The notes beneath the pieces were generated by a model. It had not been told where the DNA came from. It saw only the letters and a list, made by a program, of their open reading frames with translations, and did not search any database. A DNA stretch of 32,960 bases, from the IMG/VR virus record IMGVR_UViG_3300043539_001124, positions 1 through 32,960 of that record. The stretch is one strand, 5' to 3'. Made by a program: the position numbers and the translations under genes. Source of the DNA: a virus. Shown in pieces: positions 22,253 to 32,922 of the stretch. The first letter of the stretch is position 1. Each line of letters begins with the position of its first letter.

Positions 22253-23647
22253 TTAATTGTGATTAATTTGTGATAATAAAATTGAATTGATTGTTGTTAC
22301 ATTTATCGTTACTTGATCATTTACACAACCAGTACCTATGCTAAAAGTTACAGTATAAGTTCCTGGTATTAAATAATCATGTATAGGATTTATTTCAGTA
22401 CTCGTTGTACCATCTCCAAAATTCCATAAAATATTATAATTTGCAGTATTACAAGTTTGTTGCAATATAGGCGCAGTAAATTGAAAAGATGTGCAGGTTA
22501 AAGTTTGAGGTTGATTTAATATTAACGGTTGATAATTATAATAAGATGCATGATTTGGTAAACTAAATCTACTACTTCTTCCTAATAAGCTGATATTTAA
22601 GTTTGTATAGTTACAACCTATACCTACAATATTAGGATTGTTTATAACTGATAAACTAGTAGCATTTCTAGTTACATAGATCTTGCTATCAGGAGCTATT
22701 TGTAATGCTCCCATAAAAGGACCAGTATTATATACAAGATATCTAGAAATAGGATTTGCACATAAATCAAACTGAATTAGTGCTCCACCATTTGTACTAG
22801 CATACAATACTTTGTTATTAGGTGAAAATTCACAACCATATAAACCTTGATCTGATGCTAATGTTTGAGCATTACTCAACCAACCTGTTGCATTGTCAAA
22901 ATCATATAACTGTAATTTATTTCCACCTGATCCTGTTAATCCATAATAACAAGCAGCTATTTTTTTACCATCAGAACTTGCTTTTAATTGTCCATATGAT
23001 GTTTGAGTAATACCAGATGGAACAATACCTGTAGCTGACCAAGCTTGTACATTACCTACCATTAAATTAGTTACAGACCATGTTCTAAAAACATTACTGT
23101 TCCAATCATGAGATATAACCCAAAAATCTACATTATTACAATGTCTTACAACACATAGCTTTTCACAAGAAGGTGTATGTAAAGAAATATTTTTACTTGT
23201 TACTGCTCCTAAACCTAAACTTAAGGTCATATCTACTATTGAATAACAAATACCATTTGGTCCAGCATCATTATCTGATGTGAATATATAGTATATGTTT
23301 GCAGCACCTGGTTTTTCAACAATAACAGCAGATTGGGTTGAACTAGCATCACCAAATAATCCAGTACCATTAGTCATAACTAAGTGGTTTCTATTATAAA
23401 CGGTAACACCGTCTGTATAGAATAAGAGATTACCAGAGTTATCTGATATTGTAGCTACACCTTCAGTAGTTACTACAGCTCCATTTATTAGAGCAACAGG
23501 AACACCTGTATTAAAACTTACTCCTGCATTTGTTCCAAAATACCAATTAGAATTTTTTCCAGGTTGGGAGTATAAGCTAAATGAAACTAGTATAAAACAG
23601 TAACAGTACCAGTTTTGAAACCCCATTTTGATTTTACGTCTTGCCAT
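22253..23647 (-). CDS. Secreted beta-propeller protein with PKD domain
   Basis: A 464-residue exported protein. The N-terminus has a basic stretch (ARRKIK) then a hydrophobic signal (CFILVSFSLYSQ); a second ATG at codon 8 is an alternative start. Residues about 35-370 are beta-propeller-like (WYFGTNAGVSFNTG, ATISDNSGNLLFYTDG, YYIFTSDND), as in Bacteroidetes surface proteins that usually end in a gliding-motility domain. A PKD domain follows (about 405-450, ILWNFGDGTTSTE, HDYLIPGTYTVTF). The end lacks a CHU_C sorting domain and closes with LLSQINHN. A complete CHU_C domain lies in the gene just upstream. Confidence 0.8.
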   Translation of the reverse strand: MARRKIKMGFQNWYCYCFILVSFSLYSQPGKNSNWYFGTNAGVSFNTGVPVALINGAVVTTEGVATISDNSGNLLFYTDGVTVYNRNHLVMTNGTGLFGDASSTQSAVIVEKPGAANIYYIFTSDNDAGPNGICYSIVDMTLSLGLGAVTSKNISLHTPSCEKLCVVRHCNNVDFWVISHDWNSNVFRTWSVTNLMVGNVQAWSATGIVPSGITQTSYGQLKASSDGKKIAACYYGLTGSGGNKLQLYDFDNATGWLSNAQTLASDQGLYGCEFSPNNKVLYASTNGGALIQFDLCANPISRYLVYNTGPFMGALQIAPDSKIYVTRNATSLSVINNPNIVGIGCNYTNLNISLLGRSSRFSLPNHASYYNYQPLILNQPQTLTCTSFQFTAPILQQTCNTANYNILWNFGDGTTSTEINPIHDYLIPGTYTVTFSIGTGCVNDQVTINVTTINSILLSQINHN

Positions 23648-28810: not shown

Positions 28811-29665
28811 TTAAAAAATATATCTGATTTTGTTCCAAGGAATAATCTGATCATGTAACTCTACAAACTCTTGAATAAAACCAGATTTTAAATTATGTTG
28901 GTATCTAATATTCTTACCACCAAATTCTGATATCTTATTCTCTTGTATTTCAGGTTTCCATAGCAAATGTTCACCTGGTAAATCATACATCAGATTGTGT
29001 TTATGCTTTTGCTCATTATGAGTTAAGAATATAACCTCTGCTTTCACTTTATCCTTATTAATAACATGCTTATCTATGTATTCAAATAACATTTTATAGT
29101 TATCTAACCAACGTTCAGCAACAATAACAGGTGAAAAGTTTATATGTACATCATATCCTGCTGAGATAAACTCATCAATAGCTTTGATTCTATTTTCAAT
29201 ACTACTGGTATTAGGCTCAAGATAGTCTGAGTAAAACTGTGGCATCAAACTGAATCTAATTCTAATTTTCTCTTCAGGATTAAAATTTAAAAGTTTTTTA
29301 TTTACATACTTTGTGGCAAAAGAACCCATTGCAATATCATGATCTCTAAAGAAACTAAATATCTGTTCCCATTTATGATACCCTGCATGTAAAGCAAAGT
29401 CTTCGTTGCAAGAGATATCATAAGTAATTAGTGTATCATGTGTTTGATTAGGTTTTTCTACATCTGCAAACCAAGAATGGTTATTAATTTCAGTAAGAAT
29501 TTGATCTGTGTTAGTAGCTATACTTAAACCACTTGCTTTGTGTCTTTTCATATAACAGTAAGAACAGTTATATAAACAACCATGACCAAAACTAGGTGAG
29601 ATAAAGTCAGTACTTCTACCACTAGGTCTAATAAGCAAAGCTTTCCTAGTAACTTCTTCAATCAT
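28811..29665 (-). CDS. Radical SAM enzyme of the spore photoproduct lyase (SplB-like) family
   Basis: A 284-residue radical SAM enzyme from ATG 29663-29665; a longer TTG reading would run into the tRNA. The 4Fe-4S motif CLYNCSYC (residues 30-37, CxxxCxxC) is followed by family segments: TYDISCNEDFALHAGYHKW, FFRDHDIAMGSFATKYVN, RIRFSLMPQFYS, EPNTSSIENRI and GYDVHINFSPVIV. These match the spore photoproduct lyase/COG1533 group, some of which repair UV-made thymine dimers with S-adenosylmethionine. A repair role for phage DNA is plausible, but many relatives have unknown substrates. Confidence 0.85.
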   Translation of the reverse strand: MIEEVTRKALLIRPSGRSTDFISPSFGHGCLYNCSYCYMKRHKASGLSIATNTDQILTEINNHSWFADVEKPNQTHDTLITYDISCNEDFALHAGYHKWEQIFSFFRDHDIAMGSFATKYVNKKLLNFNPEEKIRIRFSLMPQFYSDYLEPNTSSIENRIKAIDEFISAGYDVHINFSPVIVAERWLDNYKMLFEYIDKHVINKDKVKAEVIFLTHNEQKHKHNLMYDLPGEHLLWKPEIQENKISEFGGKNIRYQHNLKSGFIQEFVELHDQIIPWNKIRYIF

Positions 29666-29680
29666 AATTTGTAATATTTG

Positions 29681-29782
29681 CAATCAGGACAGGACTCGAA
29701 CCTGTAGTTGTATTACTGTTTTCAATGTTATTGTAATACACCCGTTTATAGAGTTGCGTTTAACCAATTCCGCCACCTGACT
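29681..29782 (-). tRNA. tRNA-Leu-like (probable anticodon UAA), long variable arm
   Basis: Cloverleaf on the minus strand: acceptor AGTCAGG/CCTGATT, D-arm GCGGAATTGGTTAAACGC, T-arm ACAGGTTCGAGTCCTGT with a canonical TTCGA loop. The variable arm is long, with an 8-bp stem TGTATTAC/GTAATACA and a 16-nt loop, which points to a class II tRNA; with the D-arm this suggests Leu. The anticodon loop TATAAAC puts TAA at the anticodon position but A instead of the normal T at position 33, and the top pair of that stem is mismatched. Functional status is therefore uncertain. Confidence 0.75.
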
Positions 29783-29800
29783 ATTTGCTCTTTATTCTAT

Positions 29801-29875
29801 TACCCCTTTATATCAGAGCTAACCTGTTGAACTTATCCGAGTTTCTACAATTAAATGTATTCAGGGGTACAGGTT
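29801..29875. other. Structured element between the tRNA genes (degenerate tRNA or pseudoknot)
   Basis: TACCCCT (29801-29807) pairs with AGGGGTA (29863-29869), and AACCTGT (29821-29827) pairs with ACAGGTT (29869-29875). The two helices cross, as in a pseudoknot. Inside are two small hairpins, AACT/AGTT (29830-29843) and TACA/TGTA (29846-29859). The 7-bp outer stem, an A one base beyond it and the 70-nt length resemble a tRNA acceptor on the minus strand, but there is no TTCGA loop and no workable anticodon arm. Either a decayed tRNA or a separate structured RNA. Confidence 0.45.
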
Positions 29876-29879
29876 ATAG

Positions 29880-29951
29880 TGTTCCCACTAGGAATCGAAC
29901 CTAGATTAAAAGATTAGAAATCTTTTGTTCTATCCGTTGAACTATGGAAAC
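29880..29951 (-). tRNA. tRNA-Arg (anticodon UCU)
   Basis: Complete cloverleaf: acceptor GTTTCCA/TGGGAAC with one G-U pair and discriminator A; D-arm with GTTC/GAAC; anticodon arm AAAGA-TTTCTAA-TCTTT, giving anticodon UCU; short variable loop; T-arm CTAGG-TTCGATT-CCTAG. It reads AGA, the arginine codon used most in these AT-rich genes, so it would support phage translation. CCA is not encoded. Confidence 0.93.
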
Positions 29952-31195: not shown

Positions 31196-31532
31196 TTCTC
31201 TTGAATAAATTAATGAATTGAATTGATGATGGATTTCCTAGTATGGCTTCGTCTATACCTATCCAATATCCATCAGATATGTTAGGTGCATCAAGACCGA
31301 ATGCTCTTGGTTGTACAATTGGATAGTTGTTTAAATAAAACATACAATCACTTTTGTCTAGGTCTCTCCAAATAGTTTTAGAGTAATGGTTGTAGGCAAC
31401 TTCTTGCCAAGTTAATCCGTCTTTTGGTTTAAAATCTGTACCACTAATGATAGCAAGAATTTGTCCCAATGGTTTTTTAGCAAGGATTGAATCCCTGATA
31501 CAAAATGATAATGATAGTCCGATGAGTCTCAT
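31185..31532 (-). CDS. Unknown 115-residue protein
   Basis: I choose ATG 31530-31532. The longer reading to 31676 lies antiparallel in codon sense to, and out of frame with, the real upstream gene, and its extra 48 residues are Arg/Cys-rich noise. The trimmed protein begins RLIGLSLSFCIRDSILAKK and contains tryptophan-rich segments (LTWQEVAYNHYSKTIWRDL). No family recognised. It leaves a normal 17-nt gap to the upstream stop. Confidence 0.6.
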   Translation of the reverse strand: MRLIGLSLSFCIRDSILAKKPLGQILAIISGTDFKPKDGLTWQEVAYNHYSKTIWRDLDKSDCMFYLNNYPIVQPRAFGLDAPNISDGYWIGIDEAILGNPSSIQFINLFKRNDI

Positions 31533-31549
31533 TGTTTTAAAAAATTGGT

Positions 31550-31861
31550 TTAAAATAAATCTGGATGTTCTCTCTTTAACCATGCAAGTTGAGCAATAGC
31601 ATCTTCTTTTCTGGAAGCTTGTTCTAAATCTCTCCATTCTTCCCATGTAATGAAACCTAATTCTCTTTTTTGCCAATTAGATAAACAATCACTTACATAG
31701 AAATTTGAATGTTGATGAGAATCCATATCAGCATAAGAAGATAGAATAGCAAATGTATCATCTTCAAAAAAGATAACTAAGTCTTCACTATTTTCTGGGT
31801 AACCTGGAAACTCTTTGATAGTCTTTCCTATCAGTTCTTGGTAATTAAATAACTGTCTCAT
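31550..31861 (-). CDS. Unknown protein, paralogue of 30603-30905
   Basis: A 103-residue protein with an N-terminal strand region (IFFEDDTFAILSSYADMDSH) and a C-terminal helix pair matching the protein at 30603-30905. It is the first gene downstream of the structured noncoding region at 31912-32337. No function known; duplication within 1 kb suggests an accessory role. Confidence 0.72.
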   Translation of the reverse strand: MRQLFNYQELIGKTIKEFPGYPENSEDLVIFFEDDTFAILSSYADMDSHQHSNFYVSDCLSNWQKRELGFITWEEWRDLEQASRKEDAIAQLAWLKREHPDLF

Positions 31862-31911
31862 TTGTGTTTTAGAAATTTGGTTTATAAATATTTGAATTGT
31901 TCAGTTTGATA

Positions 31912-32337
31912 TTTTTGCACGGTTGCAACATTATAGTCTAGTTTTAGCGGAGATCTATCTCCATTTAACCGTGTTGAAGGGTTTTTCCTCAGCATTTCAA
32001 GACAACAACTATTGTTCAATGTTGCAACCATACAAAAAATTAACAAGTGGCACCCGTTTGCAGGTAGGTGCTATCCAATGGTTACATAGCATAACATACG
32101 TTCTATACTAATCCCTGCTTGTTCTTGTTACAGTAAAACAATTGTAAGGTAGGTAGTCATTAAACCCTTATCTCAATTGTTTACATTTTAAGTTGTTATT
32201 GGGTTTCTCAATTACCAATATTAATCAGGTCATTACCTATTAGGACATCCTGAGCCCGAAGCTCTTTACAACCTACTTTTTATGCAGCACCCAAATCCTA
32301 TGGGTAGTGAGGAGACGCTCTTACTGATTACAACTTA
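31912..32337 (-). ncRNA. Candidate large structured noncoding RNA
   Basis: A gene-free stretch of 466 nt (31862-32327) folds by eye into four adjacent domains. D1: 31912-31932 with 32018-32038, 21 positions, of which 19 are Watson-Crick and two are G-U only if the RNA is the minus strand. D2: TAACAAG/CTTGTTA (32041-32047, 32124-32130) enclosing GCACC/GGTGC, whose loop GCAGG (32060-32064) can pair with CCTGC (32114-32118). D3: hairpin 32133-32184 with 11 bp plus one bulge, then 5 bp. D4: TAAGTTGT/ACAACTTA (32189-32196, 32330-32337) enclosing TATTGG/CCAATA, TAATCAG/CTGATTA and GAGC/GCTC. No coding pattern is seen. Its 5' edge overlaps the stop of the upstream gene. Two tRNAs lie 2 kb away, a setting known for the GOLLD and ROOL large phage RNAs. 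Confidence 0.65.
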
Positions 32338-32522
32338 TCTTTTATTATTCTTACTATATTTTCCAGTTCTTCAATTTTGGCCTCCATTTCTGTGGCCCAT
32401 AGATCATACTCAACATGTTCTTGATAGTATTGCTCTATTGTACCATTCTCTCTAAGTTCAGGAAGAGGACAGTTTGCATAACTGTCCTTTAAATCCTGAA
32501 GTTTCTTAAATACATCTTCCAT
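32328..32522 (-). CDS. Unknown 64-residue helical protein
   Basis: A small, acidic, helical protein (FKKLQDLKDSYANC, then WATEMEAKIEELENIVRII) with coiled-coil-like spacing at the end. It follows the upstream gene by 1 nt. Its last codons and stop form one strand of the closing helix of the structured RNA element. Confidence 0.62.
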   Translation of the reverse strand: MEDVFKKLQDLKDSYANCPLPELRENGTIEQYYQEHVEYDLWATEMEAKIEELENIVRIIKDKL

Positions 32523-32523
32523 A

Positions 32524-32922
32524 TCAAATACATTGTTTGGTTACAGAAACTAATTTGTTAATTCTGTCATCAATTCTAATAGATCTGAATGGGCTCTCTC
32601 TTAACCAATGTGGACCAAACCACGTTGATTGCTTAATGGCTGTAATCATAGGTAACGGGCAGAATACAATATCTACTTGCTTTGTTACCCATAAATCCAT
32701 GTAATGCTGCATAGCATTCTTAACATCTGTACTTAAAGAAAAGTCAAGTATAATGTCACCATTAGTACCAAGTTCTGTTTCTATAAAGTCAACCTTTAAT
32801 TTCTCTGCTACAGCATTTGATTGGGATTCTAACATAGAACCATCTGTAAACATAAACGGGTGTGGTGAAGAAAAGTTAGCAACCTTCTTACCATTACTGA
32901 GTGTAATAATGTTTGTTGTCAT
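32524..32922 (-). CDS. Conserved phage protein of unknown function
   Basis: A 132-residue soluble protein. The segment NFSSPHPFMFTDGSMLESQS, then VDFIETELGTNGDIILDF and QVDIVFCPLPMITAIKQSTW, gives a strand-rich fold. This gene type recurs in Bacteroidetes phages without assigned function. It lies near the window edge with a 38-nt upstream stretch that shows nothing definite. Confidence 0.68.
   Translation of the reverse strand: MTTNIITLSNGKKVANFSSPHPFMFTDGSMLESQSNAVAEKLKVDFIETELGTNGDIILDFSLSTDVKNAMQHYMDLWVTKQVDIVFCPLPMITAIKQSTWFGPHWLRESPFRSIRIDDRINKLVSVTKQCI

Follow-up and report, generated by a model that had tools for sequence, protein, structure and literature searches.

Among the structured RNAs described from phages, GOLLD and ROOL are the closest to the locus presented here. 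GOLLD is a structured phage RNA whose function is not known and that often lies near tRNA islands; some members carry a tRNA in a linker, and many exceed 800 nt and have a conserved 3' region (PMC12286853). ROOL is a structured RNA of phages and prophages, without known function, that occurs near tRNAs (PMC12286853). Further points of reference are the tRNA arrays of phages and the hatchet ribozyme (RF02678). The window analysed in this study, i.e., the whole 32,960-nt stretch of IMG/VR record IMGVR_UViG_3300043539_001124, probably derives from a phage, and it contains a 466-nt gap (31862-32327) in which four units, named here modules A and B and units C and D, follow one another on the minus strand (Table 1). 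The original prediction had left open whether this region is GOLLD, ROOL, or a new class. In the Rfam 15 search neither GOLLD nor ROOL reached the gathering score in the window, nor did they appear in 31500-32700 when E values as high as 10 were admitted; no other Rfam family matched the gap or the modules.

The setting is common to GOLLD, ROOL, and modules A and B, whereas models, size, and the single-RNA layout differ. A tRNA-like insert found at positions 2027-2122 of contig L068, within a recurrent frame described below, recalls the tRNA in the linker of GOLLD; however, no Rfam match is present here, and the conserved units measure ~150 and ~92 nt, compared to more than 800 nt for many GOLLD members. 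ROOL as determined by cryo-EM has 659 nt and several pseudoknots, and no unit of the array comes near that; with a gap of 466 nt and units of ~150 and ~92 nt, a single RNA of ~600 nt or more was not found. The array resembles phage tRNA arrays in that its small structured RNAs stand in tandem, lie on the coding strand, and have small accessory genes around them, but modules A and B are not tRNAs. The hatchet ribozyme is likewise a small structured RNA of the same virus group (L086 2975-3112), but it occupies a separate locus, and neither A nor B matches its model. No description of these RNAs was found in open-licence papers. Modules A and B are new families of the same broad kind, namely, orphan structured phage RNAs, with an unusual architecture of frames, inserts, and swapped domains.

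The gap lies between two minus-strand ORFs (31550-31861 and 32328-32522) and, as originally described, lacks a credible ORF: it holds only two short ones with TTG starts, of 54 aa (31882-32046, minus) and 62 aa (31923-32111, plus), and no conserved ORF. The first ~10 nt of module A overlap the last codons of the upstream ORF. Its placement near phage tRNAs is correct only loosely, since a tRNA is present but the nearest, tRNA-Arg at 29879-29951, is ~2 kb distant; within the gap, neither ARAGORN nor RF00005 matched a tRNA or tmRNA. On the far side of this tRNA, a spore-photoproduct-lyase-like (SPL-like) protein is encoded at 28811-29683 (Pfam SPL). The window also contains a second tRNA-like gene at 29681-29782 (minus), which scores 36.8 bits with Rfam but is not called by ARAGORN; its variable arm is long. 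The 96 nt between both tRNAs (29783-29878, minus) carry complementary words in pseudoknot order (AACCTGT/ACAGGTT, ACCCCT/AGGGGT, and GCTCT/AGAGC); this stretch has an ordinary fold energy and no Rfam match.

Table 1. Features of the array, its flanking genes, and the recurrent frame. Positions refer to the window unless a contig is named.
Feature	Position	Strand	Basis or remark
132-aa conserved protein	32524..32922	-	relatives in 2 other IMG/VR contigs (L003, L005)
64-aa ORF upstream of array	32328..32522	-	overlaps P1 of module A with its stop codon
Module A, ~150-nt structured RNA family	32188..32340	-	covariance model (CM) match 150.1 bits and alignment
Unit C, stem-loop of 11+5 pairs between A and B	32133..32184	-	sequence; fold z -1.8
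Module B, ~92-nt RNA	32041..32132	-	87% identity to G014 35590-35681, E 2.5e-27
Unit D, 21-22-pair helix around inner branched domain	31911..32039	-	fold z -7.0
103-aa ORF downstream of array	31550..31861	-	no Pfam match
Recurrent frame with variable inserts	L142 584-1597; L064, L068, L086, L099, L101, L107, L108		

All four closed domains of the original prediction are present on the minus strand. In module A, TAAGTTGT (32330-32337) pairs with ACAACTTA (32189-32196) over 8 pairs; in unit C, GTAAACAATTG (32174-32184) pairs with CAATTGTTTTAC (32133-32144) and is continued by 5 inner pairs, giving an 11+5 helix with one bulge; in module B, TAACAAG (32124-32130) pairs with CTTGTTA (32041-32047) over 7 pairs, and the words GCAGG (32114-32118) and CCTGC (32060-32064) are both in place. 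In unit D, 32018-32039 pairs with 31911-31932 over 21 pairs, or 22 if a further pair at the end is counted, and two of them are G-U. That this long helix is strand-specific by virtue of its two G-U pairs had also been claimed, and the longest uninterrupted helix of the gap (G-U allowed) indeed reaches 22 pairs on the minus strand but 12 on the plus. Among 300 dinucleotide shuffles, the longest helix averaged 11.6 pairs and never exceeded 17, and the maximum among 135 tiles of the same genome was 19; the underlying inverted repeat is the longest in the window at distances up to 400. The minimum free energy (MFE) of the whole gap is lower than that of shuffles (z -2.9 on the minus and -2.0 on the plus strand). 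Total folding energy alone is unconvincing as evidence for a structured RNA and was set aside, because in a composition regression the gap ranks only 42nd of 306 genome tiles. Taken singly, units C and D have the z scores given in Table 1, and those of modules A and B are near 0.

Relatives were sought by several routes. The 103-aa protein led only to contig L002, which is identical across the region and therefore uninformative on covariation, and the 132-aa protein led to two distant contigs, L003 and L005, whose gaps hold no recognisable copy. Both of the latter have long, apparently structured noncoding gaps of their own (L005 6406-6955; L003 4480-4830 and 6375-6600) that are not recognisably related to A or B. 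The SPL-like protein has 472 relatives; 80 of these loci were searched by single-sequence nhmmer, which yielded one homologue, L044 3601-3749 (E 1.9e-7); it opens a 560-nt noncoding gap that directly follows an SPL-like gene of the same type. A shared-word pattern run over viral contigs added 15 contigs with the complete element and L096 with its core only. Counting the core-only L096, 17 other IMG/VR contigs thereby carry module A, and its CM matched 17 of the 33 records searched, with one copy each. A second viral pattern scan gave no new member, and the collections of deposited phages and plasmids yielded no copy of module A. The 13 stretches from a GTDB pattern scan were not convincing as members, L117 was rejected (nhmmer E 2.3e-4, but picked by the same words and in a different context), and weak CM hits in L036, L030, and the window at 23510-23599 (E 0.3-2) were not accepted.

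In module A, P1 (32330-32337/32189-32196) is followed by P2, a hairpin with a CGTCTC loop, a CCCA hairpin, and further hairpins designated CTGC-ATAAAAA, a variable one, and TATTGG. In an alignment of 13 distinct sequences, 97.1% of cells are paired under a 37-pair model, and two-sided changes occur in 18 of the 37 pairs (28 such cells). These counts overstate independence, since the sequences were in view when the model was drawn and some of the relatives lie close together. On all five measures the alignment surpassed each of 500 shuffles, and sliding the structure by 1-3 columns left at most 4 pairs with two-sided changes, so that the compensatory changes exceed both controls. Separate double changes come from L044, L086, L099, L108, and the window. 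RNAalifold recovers most of the helices unaided, and it adds the hairpin GAG(CGTCTC)CTC, which is AGG(CGTCTC)CCT in L044. P1 is specific to its context yet paired, e.g., AAGTTGT/ACAACTT, AAAATTGT/ACAATTTT, TCTAAT/ATTAGA, and CAGTTGT/ACAACTG, with double changes in six pairs. The minus strand is fixed by the one-sided changes, since 12 cells are G-U in the sense strand as opposed to 2 that are A-C; together with the compensatory changes, this upholds the view that the element is a structured noncoding RNA of the minus strand. Module A is not coding, because stops occur in all three frames and its lengths (152, 153, 154, and 172 nt) are off by 1, 2, or ~20 nt. Its most conserved stretches, GTGCTGCATAAAAAG, CGTCTC, GTAGTAAAG, and CAGGATGTCC, are largely hairpin loops and junctions, and ATAAAAA likewise belongs to the conserved sequence there.

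The surroundings of module A differ among contigs. An ORF starts soon after it in L087, L090, L094, L099, and L101 (at 13-40 nt in several contigs), while hundreds of noncoding nt follow in L044 and L086, and downstream genes and spacings vary. Three side observations concern these contigs. L096 5375-5448 is a core-only variant with a different closing helix (TCTTATGA/TCATAAGA), directly after a frame; L104 1425-1500, which immediately follows a frame-borne module A, is a tRNA whose predicted anticodon, UUA, is of ochre suppressor type; and L086 bears, besides its module A, the above-mentioned hatchet ribozyme at 77.7 bits.

A search of 25 related records with the remaining gap sequence (31862-32187) gave one strong match, module B, carried over 92 nt by the 80.8-kb phage contig IMGVR_UViG_3300016471_000437 (G014); the evidence for module B therefore consists of two sequences, the window and G014. 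Its parts are P1 (TAACAAG/CTTGTTA), an 8-pair hairpin with loop AACGTATG, and a GCACC/GGTGC hairpin. As compared by eye, the 8-pair hairpin reads TAGTATAG(AACGTATG)TTATGCTA in the window and TATTACAG(AACGTATG)CTGTAATA in G014, so that two pairs are changed on both sides and two on one side via G-U, with the loop the same. The loop of the GCACC/GGTGC hairpin contains CCTGC, complementary to the upstream GCAGG; both words are unchanged between window and G014, and they may form a possible pseudoknot. Units C and D had no homologue in the same comparison of the gap remainder with the 25 records. Unit D closes with GGTTGCAACATT/AATGTTGCAACC and then GTGCA, which is reminiscent of the recurrent frame and a weak lead that the two may be related.

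This frame consists of three helices with the consensus TGCAC / CTCAC hairpin / CAGTTGTAATA ... TATTACAACTG / A / GTGCA / GAGGG. In seven contigs its insert is module A, and elsewhere it holds many other inserts. Around module B of G014 it reads AGCAC-TAA-CTCAC(TACC)GTGAG-CAGTTGTAACAAG ... CTTGTTACAACT-AA-GTGCT; module B lies within the frame in L142, and in G014 A and B are both frame inserts, kilobases apart. Matched changes, noted by eye and without a statistic, occur in the helices of the frame (CTCAC/GTGAG, TCTAC/GTAGA, CAGC/GCTG, and CTTGT/ACAAG; TGCAC/GTGCA, TGCAT/ATGCA, and AGCAC/GTGCT). The 3' motif of the frame has seven matches within 5.6 kb of G014 (32610-38179), six on one strand and one on the other, compared to zero in G014 for a reversed control pattern. 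Five frame loci were tested against Rfam without a match at E up to 1. The insert of L068 has a T-arm-like end, as in tRNA. In the window the frame motif was sought and not found, and the modules there are free-standing. Directly before the frame with module A in L087 stands a good promoter (TTG, ~20 bases, TATCTTTG), which is taken here to be of Bacteroidota (Bacteroidetes) type; from its form, one might guess at a Bacteroidota host.

Comparison among the contigs shows that A and B are conserved as predicted RNA folds, that they occur apart, and that each is found both free and inserted in a frame. They are separable, because G014 has them 2.4 kb apart (module B at 35590-35681, module A at 38018-38170) and module A stands alone before ORFs elsewhere. 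The gap is therefore best read, with reasonable though not high confidence, as a tandem array in the order A-C-B-D, in which no fewer than two and probably all four units are separate small structured RNAs. These run in the direction of the surrounding genes, are probably co-transcribed with them, and would be released to act in trans. A single multi-domain noncoding RNA of ~430 nt that works like GOLLD or ROOL, with A-D as its domains and with shorter or rearranged forms in other phages, is considered unlikely. The four domains do lie close together on one strand, module A does begin a 560-nt noncoding gap in L044, and the MFE structure of the whole region joins AGUUGU/UCAGU near 32330 with ACUGA/ACAAUU near 31905; this long closing helix was nevertheless rejected, as it would need the very bases that form the covarying P1 of module A with its six double-changed pairs. 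The conservation of module A on its own in 17 contigs, with an ORF only 13-40 nt after it in several, and the distance of kilobases between B and A in G014 likewise speak against one large four-domain RNA, and this part of the original prediction is not supported. Larger transcripts may exist in some phages, since module A precedes hundreds of noncoding nt in L044 and L086.

A cis element of a polycistronic mRNA, e.g., a riboswitch-like leader or a processing or stability element for the downstream gene, would agree with the ORFs close behind module A in the five contigs named above and with compact folds and conserved loops that look aptamer-like. It too is judged unlikely, as the downstream ORFs vary among contigs and are often far off, no constant class of gene follows module A (judged from ORF sequences and spacing), and no terminator was recognised beside the array. 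Self-cleaving ribozymes of an unlisted class are very improbable: the small size, the strongly conserved unpaired core, and the hatchet ribozyme in the related contig L086 would suit them, but no Rfam ribozyme matched and no cleavage motif was recognised. A feature acting at the DNA level, such as a replication or packaging signal, could account for the longest inverted repeat of the window, but the retention of G-U pairs is confined to one strand (12 G-U to 2 A-C cells; 22 to 12 pairs), which leaves it scarcely credible.

In the window, the array of separate small RNAs is probably part of an operon transcript, because its units lie on the coding strand in rows of genes and module A overlaps the upstream ORF; no promoter of its own was recognised there. 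The RNAs may be cut from or released from this transcript, as tRNAs are, and could then work in trans, with their conserved unpaired cores offered to a protein, an RNA, or a small molecule of the infected cell. Since the genes adjoining module A differ, trans action is favoured over a riboswitch, the variable gene context being the one observation from which it is drawn. As a first guess, the modules would act on a host factor, either as its decoy or by modulating it. Recombination may shift domains between phages and between scaffolds. It is tentatively proposed that, in an uncultured phage group, a shared three-helix frame, repeated up to seven times in an RNA island, displays exchangeable domains (A, B, tRNA-like, and others), that these domains are free-standing in arrays such as that of the window, and that these phages assort RNA parts as proteins assort domains, possibly against varied host factors or defences.

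GOLLD and ROOL, as orphan structured RNAs of phages, remain unexplained, and this is the context in which the new families stand. These families, of which there are at least two, have no entry in Rfam 15, are backed by covariation, and are small enough for in vitro probing, and a reassortment of RNA domains between phages is suggested. The occurrence of the same domain free and mounted in a common frame beside other inserts is a natural experiment, and such pairs allow one to ask whether function resides in the domain or in the frame.
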